From assembly GCF_001753165.1 (NCBI RefSeq), contig NZ_CP017448.1, positions 1,506,462 through 1,570,461 on the forward strand: a DNA stretch of 64,000 nt. Direction: 5' to 3'. This document shows positions 46,957 through 53,637 of the stretch, in pieces (position 1 is the first letter of the stretch; each line of letters opens with the position of its first letter). The notes under the pieces were generated by a model that saw only the letters and a list, made by a program, of their open reading frames with translations, was not told the origin of the DNA and ran no database searches. The DNA is from Acidihalobacter aeolianus (GTDB taxonomy: Bacteria > Pseudomonadota > Gammaproteobacteria > DSM-5130 > Acidihalobacteraceae). Both the position numbers and the translations under genes were made by a program.

Positions 46957-46980
46957 TTATCGGACGTTATTGTCCGATAA
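46957..46980 (+). promoter_or_regulatory. hicAB operator dyad
   Basis: TTATCGGAC, six-base spacer, GTCCGATAA: a perfect inverted repeat ending eight bases before the chosen hicA ATG. HicB antitoxins bind such sites to repress their own operon. Confidence 0.6.
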
Positions 46981-46987
46981 TGCCTCG

Positions 46988-47200
46988 ATGAAAGGAAACG
47001 AGTTCATCCGCAGGGTCAAAGCCCTTGGGAAGAAGAACGGTTTTGAGGTTTCCGTGGATGCCGGTCGCGGTAAGGGGAGTCATCAGACGCTCTACTACGG
47101 CAGCACGTTCACCATCGTTCGCAACCCAAAGGATGAACTCAAGACAGGGACGTTCCGGGCCATGTGCGCCCAGCTTGGTATCGATCCCCGTGATCTGTGA
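46988..47200 (+). CDS. hicA: HicA-family mRNA interferase toxin
   Basis: A 70-residue toxin. The dsRNA-binding-like fold is seen in GNEFIRRVKALGKKNGFEVS, the catalytic histidine in GRGKGSHQTLYYG, and TGTFRAMCAQLGIDP closes the domain, all as in HicA. HicA cuts mRNA and is held by HicB. I chose the ATG at 46988; a TTG at 46970 would overlap the operator. The antitoxin starts eight bases after the stop. The pair is intact, so it should be functional. Confidence 0.85.
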   Translation: MKGNEFIRRVKALGKKNGFEVSVDAGRGKGSHQTLYYGSTFTIVRNPKDELKTGTFRAMCAQLGIDPRDL

Positions 47201-47207
47201 GGTCAAC

Positions 47208-47693
47208 ATGAATACATTTGAATATGCAGTGGCATTGACGCCCGATGAAGAGGGCGGGTTCGTCGTGACCTGCCGCGATCTGCCGCAGTTGGTGACGCAA
47301 GGCGAAGATGTGGCCGATGCGCTGCGAGAAGCCGCTGACGCGATGGATGAGGTGTTCGCCGCTTATATGAAGGGGCGTCTATCTTTCCCTATCCCCTCGC
47401 GTGTGCGCGCTGGTGAGTACCCGGTGTCACCCCCGGCGGAGACCGTTGCCAAGGCCGCGCTCTATGTCGCCATGCGCGAGGCCGACATCAGTAACGTGCA
47501 GCTCGCAGCCCGCTTGGGCGTGGACGAAAAAGAGGTCCGCCGTCTGCTCGACCCGCACTATGCATCGAAGCTGCCGCGCATCGCGCAGGCCGTCGCTGCG
47601 CTGGGTAAACGGCTCGTCATCAGCCTCGATGCGGCTACGTTGGAATCAGCAAAACCACCAGTATCAAAGGCCCGTCGTGTTGTCAGGGTTTAA
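47208..47693 (+). CDS. hicB: HicB-family antitoxin
   Basis: A 161-residue antitoxin. The N-terminal partial RNase H-like fold begins FEYAVALTPDEEGGFVVTCRDLPQLVTQGED and continues ALREAADAMDEVFAAYM; this part neutralises HicA. The C-terminal half has a helix-turn-helix (NVQLAARLGVDEKEVRRLLDP) for operator binding. GTGAGGTCAAC precedes the ATG at 47208. It is the second gene of the operon behind the dyad at 46957. Confidence 0.88.
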   Translation: MNTFEYAVALTPDEEGGFVVTCRDLPQLVTQGEDVADALREAADAMDEVFAAYMKGRLSFPIPSRVRAGEYPVSPPAETVAKAALYVAMREADISNVQLAARLGVDEKEVRRLLDPHYASKLPRIAQAVAALGKRLVISLDAATLESAKPPVSKARRVVRV

Positions 47694-47765: not shown

Positions 47766-47814
47766 CTCTGCGCATCTGTTTGCCGTACAATGTACGGCAA
47801 ACAGATGCGCAGAG
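47766..47814 (+). promoter_or_regulatory. Perfect 23-bp palindrome before the RHH/GNAT toxin-antitoxin pair
   Basis: Two 23-base arms, exact complements, with a three-base spacer (AAT), centred on CCGTACAATGTACGG and ending nine bases before the antitoxin ATG. It is far longer than most RHH operators. It may bind the antitoxin-toxin complex, and if transcribed would fold into a strong hairpin just ahead of the binding site AGAGGA. Confidence 0.65.
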
Positions 47815-47823
47815 GACTTCGCC

Positions 47824-48102
47824 ATGACGGCAGCAGCTACGAAAGATCGGATGGAAATCCGCGTGCTTCGTTCCGAGAAGGAGCTGGTCACTCTCGCCGC
47901 CGAACTAGAAGGCATCAAGGTCAGCCGATTCGTGTGGGATTACGCCATCAAGCGTGCCCGCAAGATCGTCGCGCGGGCTCAGCGGATTACCACGACCGAG
48001 GAAGGTTATCGGCAGATCCTCGACGCGCTGGAAAACCCGCCGGAGCCGAACACGGAGCTGAAGAACGCCATGAGCCAGTATCTAAGCAATAAAGCCAAGT
48101 GA
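47824..48102 (+). CDS. DUF1778 (TacA-like) RHH antitoxin
   Basis: A 92-residue ribbon-helix-helix protein: DRMEIRVLRSEKELVTLAAELEGIKVSRFVWDYAIKRARKI is the DNA-binding half found in TacA antitoxins, and the C-terminal tail (TTTEEGYRQILDALENPP) wraps around the acetyltransferase toxin. AGAGGACTTCGCC precedes the ATG. Its stop overlaps the start of the toxin (GTGA). Together with the palindrome upstream it forms an autoregulated unit. Confidence 0.85.
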   Translation: MTAAATKDRMEIRVLRSEKELVTLAAELEGIKVSRFVWDYAIKRARKIVARAQRITTTEEGYRQILDALENPPEPNTELKNAMSQYLSNKAK

Positions 48103-48626
48103 GTCTTCAGTTCACCACGCTCGATCGGCTGGAACACGACCGAAGGAGCTTCGATGCTGGGACGGGCGATGGCAGGGAAACGCTGACTGATTATTTGCGC
48201 ACTAAAGCGGCCAAGCATCAAGACCAGCACGTATGCCGTGTCTTCGTCCTGACGGATGATACTGCCCCAAAACGCATAATCGGCTACTACACGCTAAGCA
48301 ACGGCGAAATAGCGTGGGACTCACTGAGCGAAGACGAAGCCCCCAAGCTCCCTCGTCATCCCCTTGGTGTAATCGTCCTTGGACGGCTGGCCGTAGACCA
48401 CACCGAACAACGCAGGGGGTACGGGCCGCAACTGCTCATGGATGCCTTGTGGCGCACTGCGCGGGTATCCGAACACAGTTCCGTCTATGCGATGGTTACA
48501 GATCCACTCAACGAGAGCGCCGCCGGGTTCTACAGGAAATATGGATTCATGCCGCTGCCGGGCAATCCGGGCCGGCTTTACATCCCCATAGCTACGGTCC
48601 TTAAGTCCATCCCCCCAACAACGTGA
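48099..48626 (+). CDS. GNAT-type toxin (TacT-like acetyltransferase)
   Basis: A 175-residue GNAT acetyltransferase. HQDQHVCRVFVLTDDTAPKRIIGYYTLSNGEIA and LPRHPLGVIVLGRLAVDHTEQRRGYGPQLLMDAL, with the acetyl-CoA loop QRRGYG, then EHSSVYAMVTDPLNESAAGFYRKYGFMPLPG. TacT-type toxins acetylate charged tRNA and stop translation. The GTG start at 48099 overlaps the antitoxin stop. The gene is intact. Confidence 0.85.
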   Translation: MSLQFTTLDRLEHDRRSFDAGTGDGRETLTDYLRTKAAKHQDQHVCRVFVLTDDTAPKRIIGYYTLSNGEIAWDSLSEDEAPKLPRHPLGVIVLGRLAVDHTEQRRGYGPQLLMDALWRTARVSEHSSVYAMVTDPLNESAAGFYRKYGFMPLPGNPGRLYIPIATVLKSIPPTT

Positions 48627-49076
48627 ATAAGCGATTCAGCAATGAAATCGAACTGCGGTTTCTTTTGTGACTATGTTTAACTGTCTGCATCCACACCGTG
48701 AACTGACGTCAGCATTATTGGTCTACATTTTGCTGTGTCTAGAACATCGTTGTTGATTCACTACAACTTCAAGCACACTGAGGGACTCGGCGACTCGAGC
48801 AGATATACGCGATGTGACCGCCCATCTCGGGAAACTGAGTGAGGTCGTCTGGCTTCTCGAAGTGCAGGGGCGTCATGCTGACTTGCTAGGTGAGGTGAGG
48901 TAATTCAGGTGGGGTGTTATGAATCTCCCGCTGCCAACAGCGGGCGCTGATCTTGCGTGCGATCACGTTATTAGGGCGTCTGCCCCAAAATTGCGTAACA
49001 GTCATATCAGTAGAAACCATCTGCGCCTCGAAACTGGACCTTCCCCTTTAATGGGATTTGCCCGGTTTCCGGAATG
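48627..49076. other. Non-coding gap with a C-terminal gene relic
   Basis: About 450 bases. One plus frame reads RADIRDVTAHLGKLSEVVWL and on to LLGEVR before a stop near 48902; this looks like the helical tail of a lost mobilisation or antitoxin protein. No start or domain is left. The end of the gap meets the terminator at 49077. Confidence 0.35.
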
Positions 49077-49121
49077 CCACAAATAAAAGCCCTCCTTGTC
49101 ATGGAGGGCTTTTATTTGTGG
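49077..49121. terminator. Bidirectional terminator
   Basis: A perfect 19-base stem containing AAAAGCCCTCC and its complement, loop TTGTCAT, with A-rich and T-rich flanks inside the stem. It can end transcription in both directions and sits between the toxin-antitoxin operon and the minus-strand gene at 49200. Confidence 0.88.
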
Positions 49122-49199
49122 CGGTCGATTATCCCGTTCAAGGATACCGGGTAGGTCTCAGCCAGCACGGCACTCGCTGTTTACCCGTTCTGGTAGCGC

Positions 49200-49547: not shown

Positions 49548-49713
49548 GTCTGTCTCCTCCTTAAATGATTGAGTGCCGGCGAGGCCCTGATGTCTGTCAG
49601 GCATGGATACTGGCCGGCTGTTGGAAGACACAATACTGCTAAATGAAGATTATCCTGACACTGGCAAGCTTGCTGCTCGAACGACTCGATACGGCCAGCA
49701 GGCAGGTGGATGC

Positions 49714-50579
49714 TTACCCGCGACGAGCCGATCGCCGGTTTTCGCGCAGCTTGCGGCGGACCAGTGGTTCACCGAGGAAATGCACCATATCCGCGTGGGC
49801 CACGCGCGTCTTGCGTGGGTGTAGTGTGAGGCCGAGCTTGCGCAATCTTTTGTGGGTGTATTCAAGCGCTGCATTGGCCTGGTCCTCGGTTTTGTGGCGA
49901 ACAGCAGGAAGTCGTCTGCGTAGCGCACGAAGGGAATGTTTGACGCCGCCCATGCGCGGTCCAGTGGATCGAGATACAGGTTGCACAGAAGTGGCGAAAT
50001 GACCGCACCTTGCAATAACCCGCGCCTGCGGCTGAGGAAGCCCTGCGTATGCGGGCCAAGCGCCAGCCATGTGTGGACGATGGCGCGAAGCTGCCGATCA
50101 GGCACTTTACGTTTCAATACTCTGGACAGCAGCGCATGCGGCACGGCATCGAAAAAGGTTGCGATGTCGGCGTCGACCGTCCAGCTCCAACCGGTGTTGA
50201 CGCGCTCTCTGGCGCACGCCAGAGCGTCGTTTACGCCACGTCCCGGTCTATATGCATAGGAATTTGCATGGAAGGTGCTTTCCGTGAGCGGCTCCAGTGC
50301 CTGCACGGCGAGGCGTTGAGCGAATTTGTCACGCAGATAATAGACCGAAAGTACCCGTTTGCCACCATCCGGTTTGTTGATCATGAACTGTCTCACCGGT
50401 ATAGGGTGGTAATGCCCTGTTTGCAGTTCGCGGGCAAGACTCAGCAGGTGCAATGGCAAGTTGTGGCGCAGCGCGTCGGAATCGATTCTGGACGACCAGG
50501 GCGCCTTGTCATAGCGCAAATGTCGCCAGGCCCGATTCATGTTCTCCGGGGCGACCATTTCCGCAATCAAGTGTCCCAC
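49714..50579 (-). pseudogene. Cas1-associated reverse transcriptase, frameshifted
   Basis: A reverse transcriptase of about 288 residues. Motifs: FMINKPDGGKRVLSVYYLRDKFAQRL, the RT-2 region, WTVDADIATFFDAVPH (RT-3 aspartates), GLLQGAVISPLLCNLYLDPLD (RT-4) and VRYADDFLLFA (catalytic YADD). After YADD the frame breaks at about 49890, at a run of four A on this strand; the right continuation is in the other frame (KTEDQANAALEYTHKRLRKLGL, TRVAHADMVHFLGE, ending RRSARRG at 49714). QG..SP in RT-4 is unlike diversity-generating RTs and fits group II/CRISPR-type enzymes. Its start overlaps the end of cas1, so both were translated together. A single missing base, real or a sequencing slip, decides if it works. 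Confidence 0.82.
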
Positions 50580-51294
50580 GGCTGTATTTCCGGCAGTGTG
50601 GAGCGCAAGCGGCGCACTGCGGTCCGCGCAGCTCCCGCCAGCGACGCAGTGGGCGGGCCGGCCTGATCGTCACGCGATTCATCCATCTCCCGGGCCTCCT
50701 GTTCGGCTGCAAAAAGGCCACCGAAATCCTGTGCGGATGCAGCGGACCACAAGGCGTAGAATCGCCCTCTGGCGGCCTTGGAGAGACGGAAGCCCTCGTC
50801 CCGCGACGAGGTGAAATCCTGTGGTTTGAATTCGTCGAGCATGTTCACGATGATGCAATCCACCGCGACACGAAGCGGCTCAAGCGCGTCGAGCGCCATG
50901 CCGTCGCGTGCTGGCGCGGGCATGTGTAGAAAACCCAGGGCGGGATCCAGACCCTGGATCAGGACCTGTTTGCGTGCTTCACCCAGTGCCAGCGTGTAAC
51001 CCAGCGACAGCAATGCGTTGACCGGGTCGCGCGGTGGCCTGCGGTTGCGTCCGGGGAATGGCCACTGCGGATCGAGGTTAGCTGCCAATGCTGAAAACCA
51101 TTGCGCGGCCGCGGCTCCCTCCAGACCGCGGAGCGCTTCCGCTTTGTCCGCTGTTTCCAGATTGGCCAGTGCGACTTCAAGGGAAGCGGCCACGGGCTGA
51201 CTTGCCTTGGCGAGATGTGGATCTCGTCGGAGATACGCTTCGAGCTTCAGCCTGAGCACGCAGCGCGCCATTTCCAGTCGGGAATCCTGTCTTA
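50567..51294 (-). pseudogene. cas1: Cas1 CRISPR integrase, 5' end removed by an IS element
   Basis: The alpha-helical catalytic domain of Cas1 is clear: ALRGLEGAAAAQWFSAL, then FPGRNRRPPRDPVNALLSLGYTLALGEARKQV, GLDPALGFLHMPAPARDGMALDALEPLRVAVD. The three metal ligands are present (Glu in LALGEA, His in GFLHM, Asp in MALDALE). The N-terminal beta domain, some 80-90 residues, is missing: the reading frame enters the IS5-family element at 51294. An ATG at 51271 could start the remaining 234 residues. It overlaps the reverse transcriptase gene. No cas2 and no repeats are seen, so the system is a relic of an RT-associated CRISPR adaptation module. Confidence 0.82.
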
Positions 51295-52102
51295 GGGCCT
51301 GTTCACACTAATTCCGTTATAATAGCTGCATGGAAATCACATCGCAGCAATACAAAATCATTGAACCCTTGTTACCCATTCCTCGGGGCAACCTTAAAAT
51401 ATCCAATTTACAGGTACTTAATGCGATCCTGTATGTCGCAGAGCACGGTTGCAAGTGGCGCGGTCTGCCAGCCCGTTTCGGTCGCTGGCACAGCATCTAT
51501 ATGCGCGCCAATCGCTGGGCCAAACAGGGCGTGCTGGATCGAGTCTTCCTGGCCTTGCAAGAAAATGATGTGATCAATATCCAGGTCGATCACGTCTCGC
51601 TCGATTCCACAGCGGTCAAGGTTCATCCCGACGGCACCGGCGCACAAAAAAAAACGGTCCTCAATCTATCGGCAAGTCCCGCGCCGGATGGACAACCAAG
51701 ATTCACTTGGTCGCCGCCGGAGCCAACCGAGCCGTAGCTTTTCGCCTGTCCCCGGGACAGGCCGGAGATGCGCCAGAAGGTAGGAAACTGCTCAAAAGCC
51801 TGGAGCACTGCGGCTGGGAAGGCACCTCGGTCATCATGGACCGAGCCTATGAGGGTGACGAAACGCGCCAGCTCGCACTGGAACTGGGTATGACCCCAGT
51901 GGTGCCGCCCAAGCGCAATCGCCTCACACCTTGGGAATACGATCGCGAGCTCTACAAGAAACGCAATGAGATCGAACGCCTTTTTCGACGGCTCAAGGGT
52001 TTCCGGCGCATCTTCTCAAGATTCGATAAACTCGACGTGGTATTCACTTTCTTCATCCACTTCGCGCTTATCGTCAACACCCTCTTTAGTGTGAACAGGC
52101 CC
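51295..52102 (+). mobile_element. IS5-family (IS427-group type) insertion sequence
   Basis: An 808-base element with inverted repeats GGGCCTGTTCACACTAA at both ends, flanked by a TA duplication (51293-51294 and 52103-52104). Size, ends and the two-frame transposase fit the IS427 group of IS5. Insertion removed the 5' portion of cas1 from its coding sequence; I could not find that portion on the far side. Confidence 0.9.
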
Positions 52103-52105
52103 TAA
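51330..52105 (+). CDS. IS5-family transposase in two frames (programmed -1 frameshift)
   Basis: The first frame starts MEITSQQYKIIEPLLPIPRG and gives the N-terminal domain with LNAILYVAEHGCKWRGLPARFG and the first aspartate in DHVSLDSTAVKVHPDG. The rest is in the -1 frame: QSIGKSRAGWTTKIHLVAAGA, VIMDRAYEGDETR, the RNEIERLFRRLKGFRRIFSRFDKLD end with the catalytic glutamate. The change occurs at nine A bases (51646-51654), a classic slippery run, so the full protein of about 257 residues is probably made by ribosomal frameshifting. The stop uses the flanking TA. Both parts are otherwise intact. Confidence 0.88.
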
Positions 52106-53019: not shown

Positions 53020-53334
53020 CCCCATCAGCCCCGATGAAATCCGCAAGCAGGGCAGGATTCCAAAGAACGCCAATGTGTTCTTCACCATCTTCCAGACCTT
53101 CATGACGGGAGAAGGGCAGTTCACCTTCGAAGGCTATCCACCGGACTTCTTCGACTTCATCGTGATCGACGAATGTCACCGAGGCGGGGCTAAGGATGAA
53201 AGTACGTGGCGCGGCATCCTCGAATACTTCGCGCCTGCCGTGCAGCTCGGACTGACAGCCACACCCAAGCGCGACGTGAATGCCGACACCTACAAGTACT
53301 TCGGCGATCCGGTCTACACCTATGTATCGAGGCC
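53020..53334 (+). pseudogene. hsdR: Type I restriction HsdR fragment
   Basis: The frame reads DEIRKQGRIPKNANVFFTIF, then EGYPPDFFDFIVIDECHRGG, WRGILEYFAPAVQLGLTATPKR and YFGDPVYTY. These are helicase motifs Ia to III (DECH box, TATP) of HsdR. About 105 residues of a protein that is normally near 800-1000 remain; both ends are cut, and the sequence after VYTY is unrelated. It is a relic of a lost restriction system beside the tRNA-Leu gene. Confidence 0.85.
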
Positions 53335-53397
53335 GCTACGACCACGAGCACGGTCTCTGACCCTAACCGAGATTATTTGAGGGGTGGTTCTACAAAT

Positions 53398-53550: not shown

Positions 53551-53637
53551 TGGTGCCGGGAGCGAGAATCGAACTCGCACTCCCTTGCGGGAACCAGATT
53601 TTGAGTCTGGCGCGTCTACCAGTTCCGCCATCCCGGC
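53551..53637 (-). tRNA. tRNA-Leu (anticodon CAA)
   Basis: An 87-base tRNA with encoded CCA end. Acceptor GCCGGGA pairs with TCCCGGC; the D arm is CGGAACTGGTAGACGCG; the anticodon stem is CCAGA/TCTGG with loop CTCAAAA, so anticodon CAA reading UUG; a long variable arm TTCCCGCAAGGGAGT marks class II; the T arm is GCGAGTTCGATTCTCGC. All arms pair well. tRNA-Leu genes are common integration sites, and here the decayed mobile island ends exactly next to it while housekeeping genes lie on the other side. Confidence 0.97.

Follow-up and report, generated by a model that had tools for sequence, protein, structure and literature searches.

CRISPR systems studied so far for the acquisition of spacers from RNA are those with a reverse transcriptase (RT) fused to Cas1 (PMC11014452, PMC5513706). 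In these fusions, the uptake of spacers from RNA depends on the RT, which is also able to prime DNA synthesis on RNA (PMC10415136, PMC11014452). The RT part also has no canonical thumb (PMC8102632, PMC11014452). A second recognised architecture is the stand-alone CRISPR-associated RT (stand-alone CART), for which the operon of Maridesulfovibrio zosterae is a published example (PMC10415136). RTs that are not fused to Cas1 correspond to branch 7 of Silas 2017 (PMC5513706) and clade 13 of Toro 2018 (PMC6013744), and a functional link between RT and Cas1 as separate proteins has been proposed to predate the fusions (PMC11014452, PMC5513706). A gene order in which cas1 precedes the RT was not found stated in the published descriptions of stand-alone CRISPR RTs that were consulted, and the literature searched contained nothing on this order in Thioalkalivibrio or Chromatiales.

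The stretch of DNA analysed here, termed the window, comprises 64,000 nt of the Acidihalobacter aeolianus genome (bases 1506462-1570461 of a 3.36-Mb contig). It contains a cas1 fragment that overlaps the gene of a separate RT. The locus is very probably what remains, now inactivated, of an adaptation module of a type III CRISPR-Cas system, in which cas1 overlapped the gene of a stand-alone RT that is derived from group II RTs and has no thumb, and which formerly worked with Cas2 on a nearby array. An initial sequence-only reading had described a damaged cas1 and RT adaptation module, and this description is upheld by gene profiles, by the loss of the Cas1 N-terminus and by a frameshift in the RT.

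The cas1 fragment occupies 50567..51289 on the minus strand (open frame 50570-51289 plus the stop codon at 50567-50569). It matches both Pfam Cas_Cas1 (E = 4.2e-42, profile positions 109-282 of 283) and the PADLOC Cas1 profile (9e-43), thereby passing the profile searches that the initial reading had set as a test of its identity. The remaining part of the protein is the C-terminal helical/catalytic domain only; alignment with 16 relatives shows that the N-terminal ~100 residues are absent, so that a complete N-terminal beta domain is lacking. In the same in-frame alignment, 32 of the 34 residues that are invariant in the 16 relatives are kept. The active site is preserved, with the E of GLEG, the H of GFLH and the D/E of LDALE all present (E57, H122 and D134/E137 as numbered in the fragment). 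A Cas1 with all three catalytic ligands and a missing N-terminal domain was therefore read correctly from the letters. No second Cas1 was found elsewhere in the same genome.

The RT is encoded on the minus strand, and its whole first frame (49650-50579) matches RVT_1 (4.2e-28) and group_II_RT_mat (2.7e-60), the latter being the best curated profile match. The start codon is a GTG at 50577-50579 and the cas1 stop codon lies at 50567-50569, producing a 13-nt overlap with cas1 first and the two genes in separate frames. This overlap, together with the profile matches and the YADD motif, agrees with what had been noticed at the outset. Profiles and alignment place RT0 through YADD, representing the fingers and most of the palm, in the first frame (49887..50579). 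The conserved frame stops at ~49887 and picks up from 49893 in the frame of an ORF at 49714-50070, which carries RT motifs 6-7 and matches the later part of the same RT profile. The second part of the gene, from motifs 6-7 to the stop, spans 49714..49893 by RT profile and alignment, and ends 21 residues past the FLG of motif 7. As judged from the assembled sequence, the reading frame is broken by a single frameshift at 49887-49893, in line with the earlier placement at ~49890. This frameshift could be a sequencing error.

In order to find relatives of the module, a scan of 84,980 species genomes was combined with a class-wide search. Besides the window, 18 distinct members of the same RT clade were obtained from ~17 genomes, and most of them are apparently intact. 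In 13 of these 18 (L010, L012, L013 and L016-L025), cas1 is directly upstream of the RT, either with an overlap of a few bases or within ~200 nt; with the window counted, the RT is directly behind cas1 in 14 of 19 clade members. The initial reading is upheld here too, in that intact-looking relatives exist and have separate genes in the order cas1-then-RT. L015, L028 and L037 have no cas1 within the available stretch. In L026 and L029 the RT precedes cas1, and in L026 the two genes are separated by a cas2-like gene. L026 and L029, joined by L028 and L037 on the basis of their RTs, belong to a sister RT group from Chromatiaceae and Methylococcaceae, whose long arrays are built from another type of repeat.

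Most of the longer relative loci contain or adjoin CRISPR arrays. The L017 locus has the order array, cas2, cas1, RT, Cas10d, Cas5/Cas7 of type III-D, and Csx19. Type III-D effectors are also near cas1-RT in Thioalkalivibrio halophilus (L018), and type III-B effectors accompany L112 (same locus as L010) and L115 (same locus as L016). In L019, a Thioalkalivibrio locus from the same four-member RT group as the window, the array is downstream of the RT and has a GATTAAGAC end on the opposite strand.

A phylogenetic tree of 50 RT domains, including seven RTs fused to Cas1, placed 19 separate gammaproteobacterial CRISPR RTs in one clade (100/100), distinct from RTs that have no cas1. Within it, the window RT is paired with that of L017 (99/90), and these two form a clade of four with the RTs of two Thioalkalivibrio strains (99/98), nested within a group of 15 mostly cas1-then-RT members (100/98). 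The initial reading had named placement in a clade never linked to CRISPR as grounds for abandoning it; the clade is instead tied to cas1, arrays and type III genes. The Cas1 proteins that correspond to these RTs likewise group together (97/89), separate from the fused Cas1s; the matching clades indicate that RT and cas1 share a history at the clade level. Nested in the same Cas1 clade are the Cas1 proteins of two Allochromatium plasmids (L006 from A. vinosum and L007 from A. tepidum), which are 48-49% identical to the window fragment. Their genes are type III-B cas1 with arrays alongside, and no RT is annotated beside them. The RT was probably lost in Allochromatium, to judge from the position of these Cas1 sequences. 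This nesting counts against our main explanation, since the RT appears dispensable there.

The same trees bear on whether the locus could be a broken or split RT-Cas1 fusion, derived secondarily from the common fused form. Secondary fissions are on record (PMC5513706), and the window RT resembles the RT part of the fusions both in sequence and in its missing thumb. However, cas1-then-RT is the opposite of the order in RT-Cas1 fusions, and all seven sampled Cas1-fused RTs fall outside the 19-member clade, which is not nested among them, although the published clades, including those of the fusions, are thinly sampled, and three fused rows, as well as one separate row not in the clade, are on long branches. 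The Cas1 clade is separate as well, and we regard an origin by fission as quite improbable.

The damage to cas1 is located at an IS5-type insertion sequence on the plus strand (51292..52105), which is bounded by perfect 20-bp inverted repeats (51292-51311 and 52086-52105) and has two overlapping ORFs and a transposase with a DUF4096 domain. When the Cas1 N-terminus and cas2 were sought beyond the element, the best matches were at noise level. Because the N-terminus is not found beyond the element, we conclude that cas1 was shortened there by deletion or rearrangement and not by a plain insertion. The original idea that an IS5-family element truncated cas1 therefore stands insofar as the element adjoins the gene at 51292, but not as a simple interruption.

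No CRISPR array was found in the window by an exact-unit search, and none had been seen in the initial reading. This absence has to be revised, since a degenerate terminal repeat is present at 49036..49058 on the plus strand and the same repeat forms two arrays elsewhere in the genome. The terminal repeat, which is downstream of the RT and reads opposite to it, was identified by blastn against the genome's own CRISPR repeat (E = 3.5e-4, 23/24 columns), and no such match was obtained in 100 shuffles. Behind it is a terminator-like hairpin (49076..49122, plus strand), an inverted repeat with 23-nt arms that are 96% complementary. The window repeat and trailer align to the trailer end of the L145 array (74% over 84 columns), and the hairpin sits where that array's trailer has its own.

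The two arrays are in the same chromosome at 1635022-1637778 (L144:9022-11778) and 1840007-1840611 (L145:8007-8611), and were located by pattern matching to a type-III-like repeat end. Both have the repeat GTCCGAACGGACCTTCCCCGTTTAATGGGATTAAGAC, of which window positions 49036-49058 are a degenerate copy. Together they contain 15 readable spacers and have a near-identical shared leader with no cas genes alongside. KfrA_N and tyrosine integrase genes are found near the two arrays, along with Replic_Relax at the second, which suggests that the arrays are carried on integrated plasmid-like elements. One of the arrays is split by a 1310-bp transposase-element copy that is 99.8% identical to a second copy ~4 kb off. 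Arrays with this repeat-end pattern were not found in genus- and family-mates, and the 15 spacers had no matching protospacers in phage and plasmid collections.

These arrays raise the question of whether the fragment still functions, with the truncated Cas1, the RT expressed via the frameshift, or both, serving two distant arrays. Both frames are open but for one shift, the catalytic residues are kept, and same-repeat arrays persist in the genome. Against this, the N-terminal domain of Cas1 is gone, and neither a Cas2 (at Pfam sensitivity) nor a RAMP protein was found in the whole genome, extending the earlier remark that no cas2 is seen. We consider continued function most improbable and, with the searches for Cas2 and RAMP proteins both negative, infer that the system is presently inactive.

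The module is in a strain-specific region. Alignments of the genus-mates G001 and G002 to the window begin at 53551 and run rightwards, with none immediately to the left of that position. This border coincides exactly with the end of a tRNA-Leu(CAA) gene (53551..53637, minus strand, ARAGORN), where conserved DNA meets strain-specific DNA, and the cas1-RT module is on the left, strain-specific side. No attachment-site duplicate of the tRNA-Leu end was found within the window, so an island that targets tRNA-Leu is suggested by the border only. Two toxin-antitoxin gene pairs are in the same strain-specific stretch, one encoding the toxin HicA and a HicB-like protein (46970-47693), the other a TacA-like antitoxin and a toxin of the GNAT acetyltransferase type (47824-48626). 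A perfect 24-nt inverted repeat with 1 base between its arms (47766-47814) is directly before the TacA-like gene. Adjoining the tRNA-Leu border is a ResIII/DEAD helicase fragment (53075-53380), probably a decayed restriction or defence gene.

The architecture of the RT distinguishes the clade from group II RTs, which have a thumb. In complete clade RTs, the FLG of motif 7 is followed by 6-72 further residues, in most cases 6-23; the L021 RT runs off the end of its contig and was left out of these lengths. The genome's own unlinked RT (L003) runs 188 residues past the RT domain. An AlphaFold2 model of the L017 RT (pLDDT 92.7) has a palm-and-fingers fold that matches group II RT structures over these two regions, and the clade RTs are without a thumb/X domain. 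Missing thumbs were considered as a novelty of the clade and set aside, as fused CRISPR RTs are without one too (PMC8102632, PMC11014452). The PADLOC 'RT' profile PDLC01136 was likewise rejected as a clade marker, as group II RTs and fusions score about equally high. A search of the window at Rfam gathering scores returned one tRNA as its sole match and no group II intron RNA, and this result combined with the lack of a thumb favors a CRISPR RT over a stray intron. That an RT from a decayed group II intron landed beside cas1 by chance, with no role in CRISPR adaptation, is the least probable explanation of all, for although group_II_RT_mat is the best curated profile and group II RTs are the closest solved folds, intron RNA is not found in the window, the thumb/X domain is missing from the clade but not from L003, and the same pair in the same order recurs in 13 other loci whose clade is apart from RTs without cas1.

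A role in CRISPR adaptation being the preferred reading, the locus can be compared with the described classes. Like stand-alone CARTs, it has a group-II-derived RT that is unfused to Cas1, adjoins cas1, has neither a thumb/X domain nor intron RNA (domains V/VI of a group II intron are not found around the RT in the window), and is related to systems with cas1/cas2 nearby and a type III link. The link to an array, cas2 and type III effectors is present in intact relatives, while the window retains the terminal repeat only. The comparison with branch 7 and clade 13 was made by description as opposed to member sequences. RT-Cas1 and Cas6-RT-Cas1 fusions, such as the type III-B system of Marinomonas mediterranea (PMC11014452, PMC8102632), share the thumb-less palm-and-fingers RT and the association with Cas1 and type III, but are single polypeptides with the RT first. 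The window and its clade have separate proteins in overlapping frames, the reversed order, and separate RT and Cas1 clades. The Allochromatium III-B systems share the Cas1 clade but have no annotated RT.

The initial proposal that the intact form may be an undescribed variant is doubtful, because stand-alone CRISPR RTs have already been named as a class (PMC10415136), which corresponds to branch 7 and clade 13 (PMC5513706, PMC6013744). As the class is published, we file the window locus as a decayed stand-alone CRISPR RT. A broader proposal is that the cas1-then-RT modules found in Gammaproteobacteria, sulfur oxidisers among them, represent an undescribed CRISPR RT lineage, in which the RT would have been gained behind cas1 independently of the fusions and would work in trans with Cas1-Cas2 as a separate protein that has no thumb, with switching between III-B and III-D effectors and renewed loss of the RT in Allochromatium. 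We offer this only tentatively and think it rather unlikely as a whole.

By analogy with the fused enzymes, RNA-derived spacers, priming and a physical partnership between RT and Cas1 may be hypothesized for the intact relatives. The RT would probably copy short RNA or DNA fragments, on which it may self-prime, into prespacer DNA, and Cas1-Cas2 would then insert this DNA into an array that feeds a III-D or III-B effector. In the window, decay very probably involved loss of the Cas1 N-terminal domain at the IS5-type element, loss of cas2, the effectors and nearly all of the array, and frameshifting of the RT. Cas-less arrays with the same repeat persist elsewhere in the chromosome. We know of no assay of the stand-alone RTs of the 19-member clade.

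The clade presents the separate state of RT and Cas1 in cultured hosts, namely two Thioalkalivibrio strains, with the RT-less Allochromatium Cas1 available for comparison. The supply of spacers from RNA by a free thumb-less RT therefore becomes directly testable in this clade. As a fossil, the window locus contributes no more than an example of decay, one where arrays devoid of cas genes have outlasted the adaptation module.
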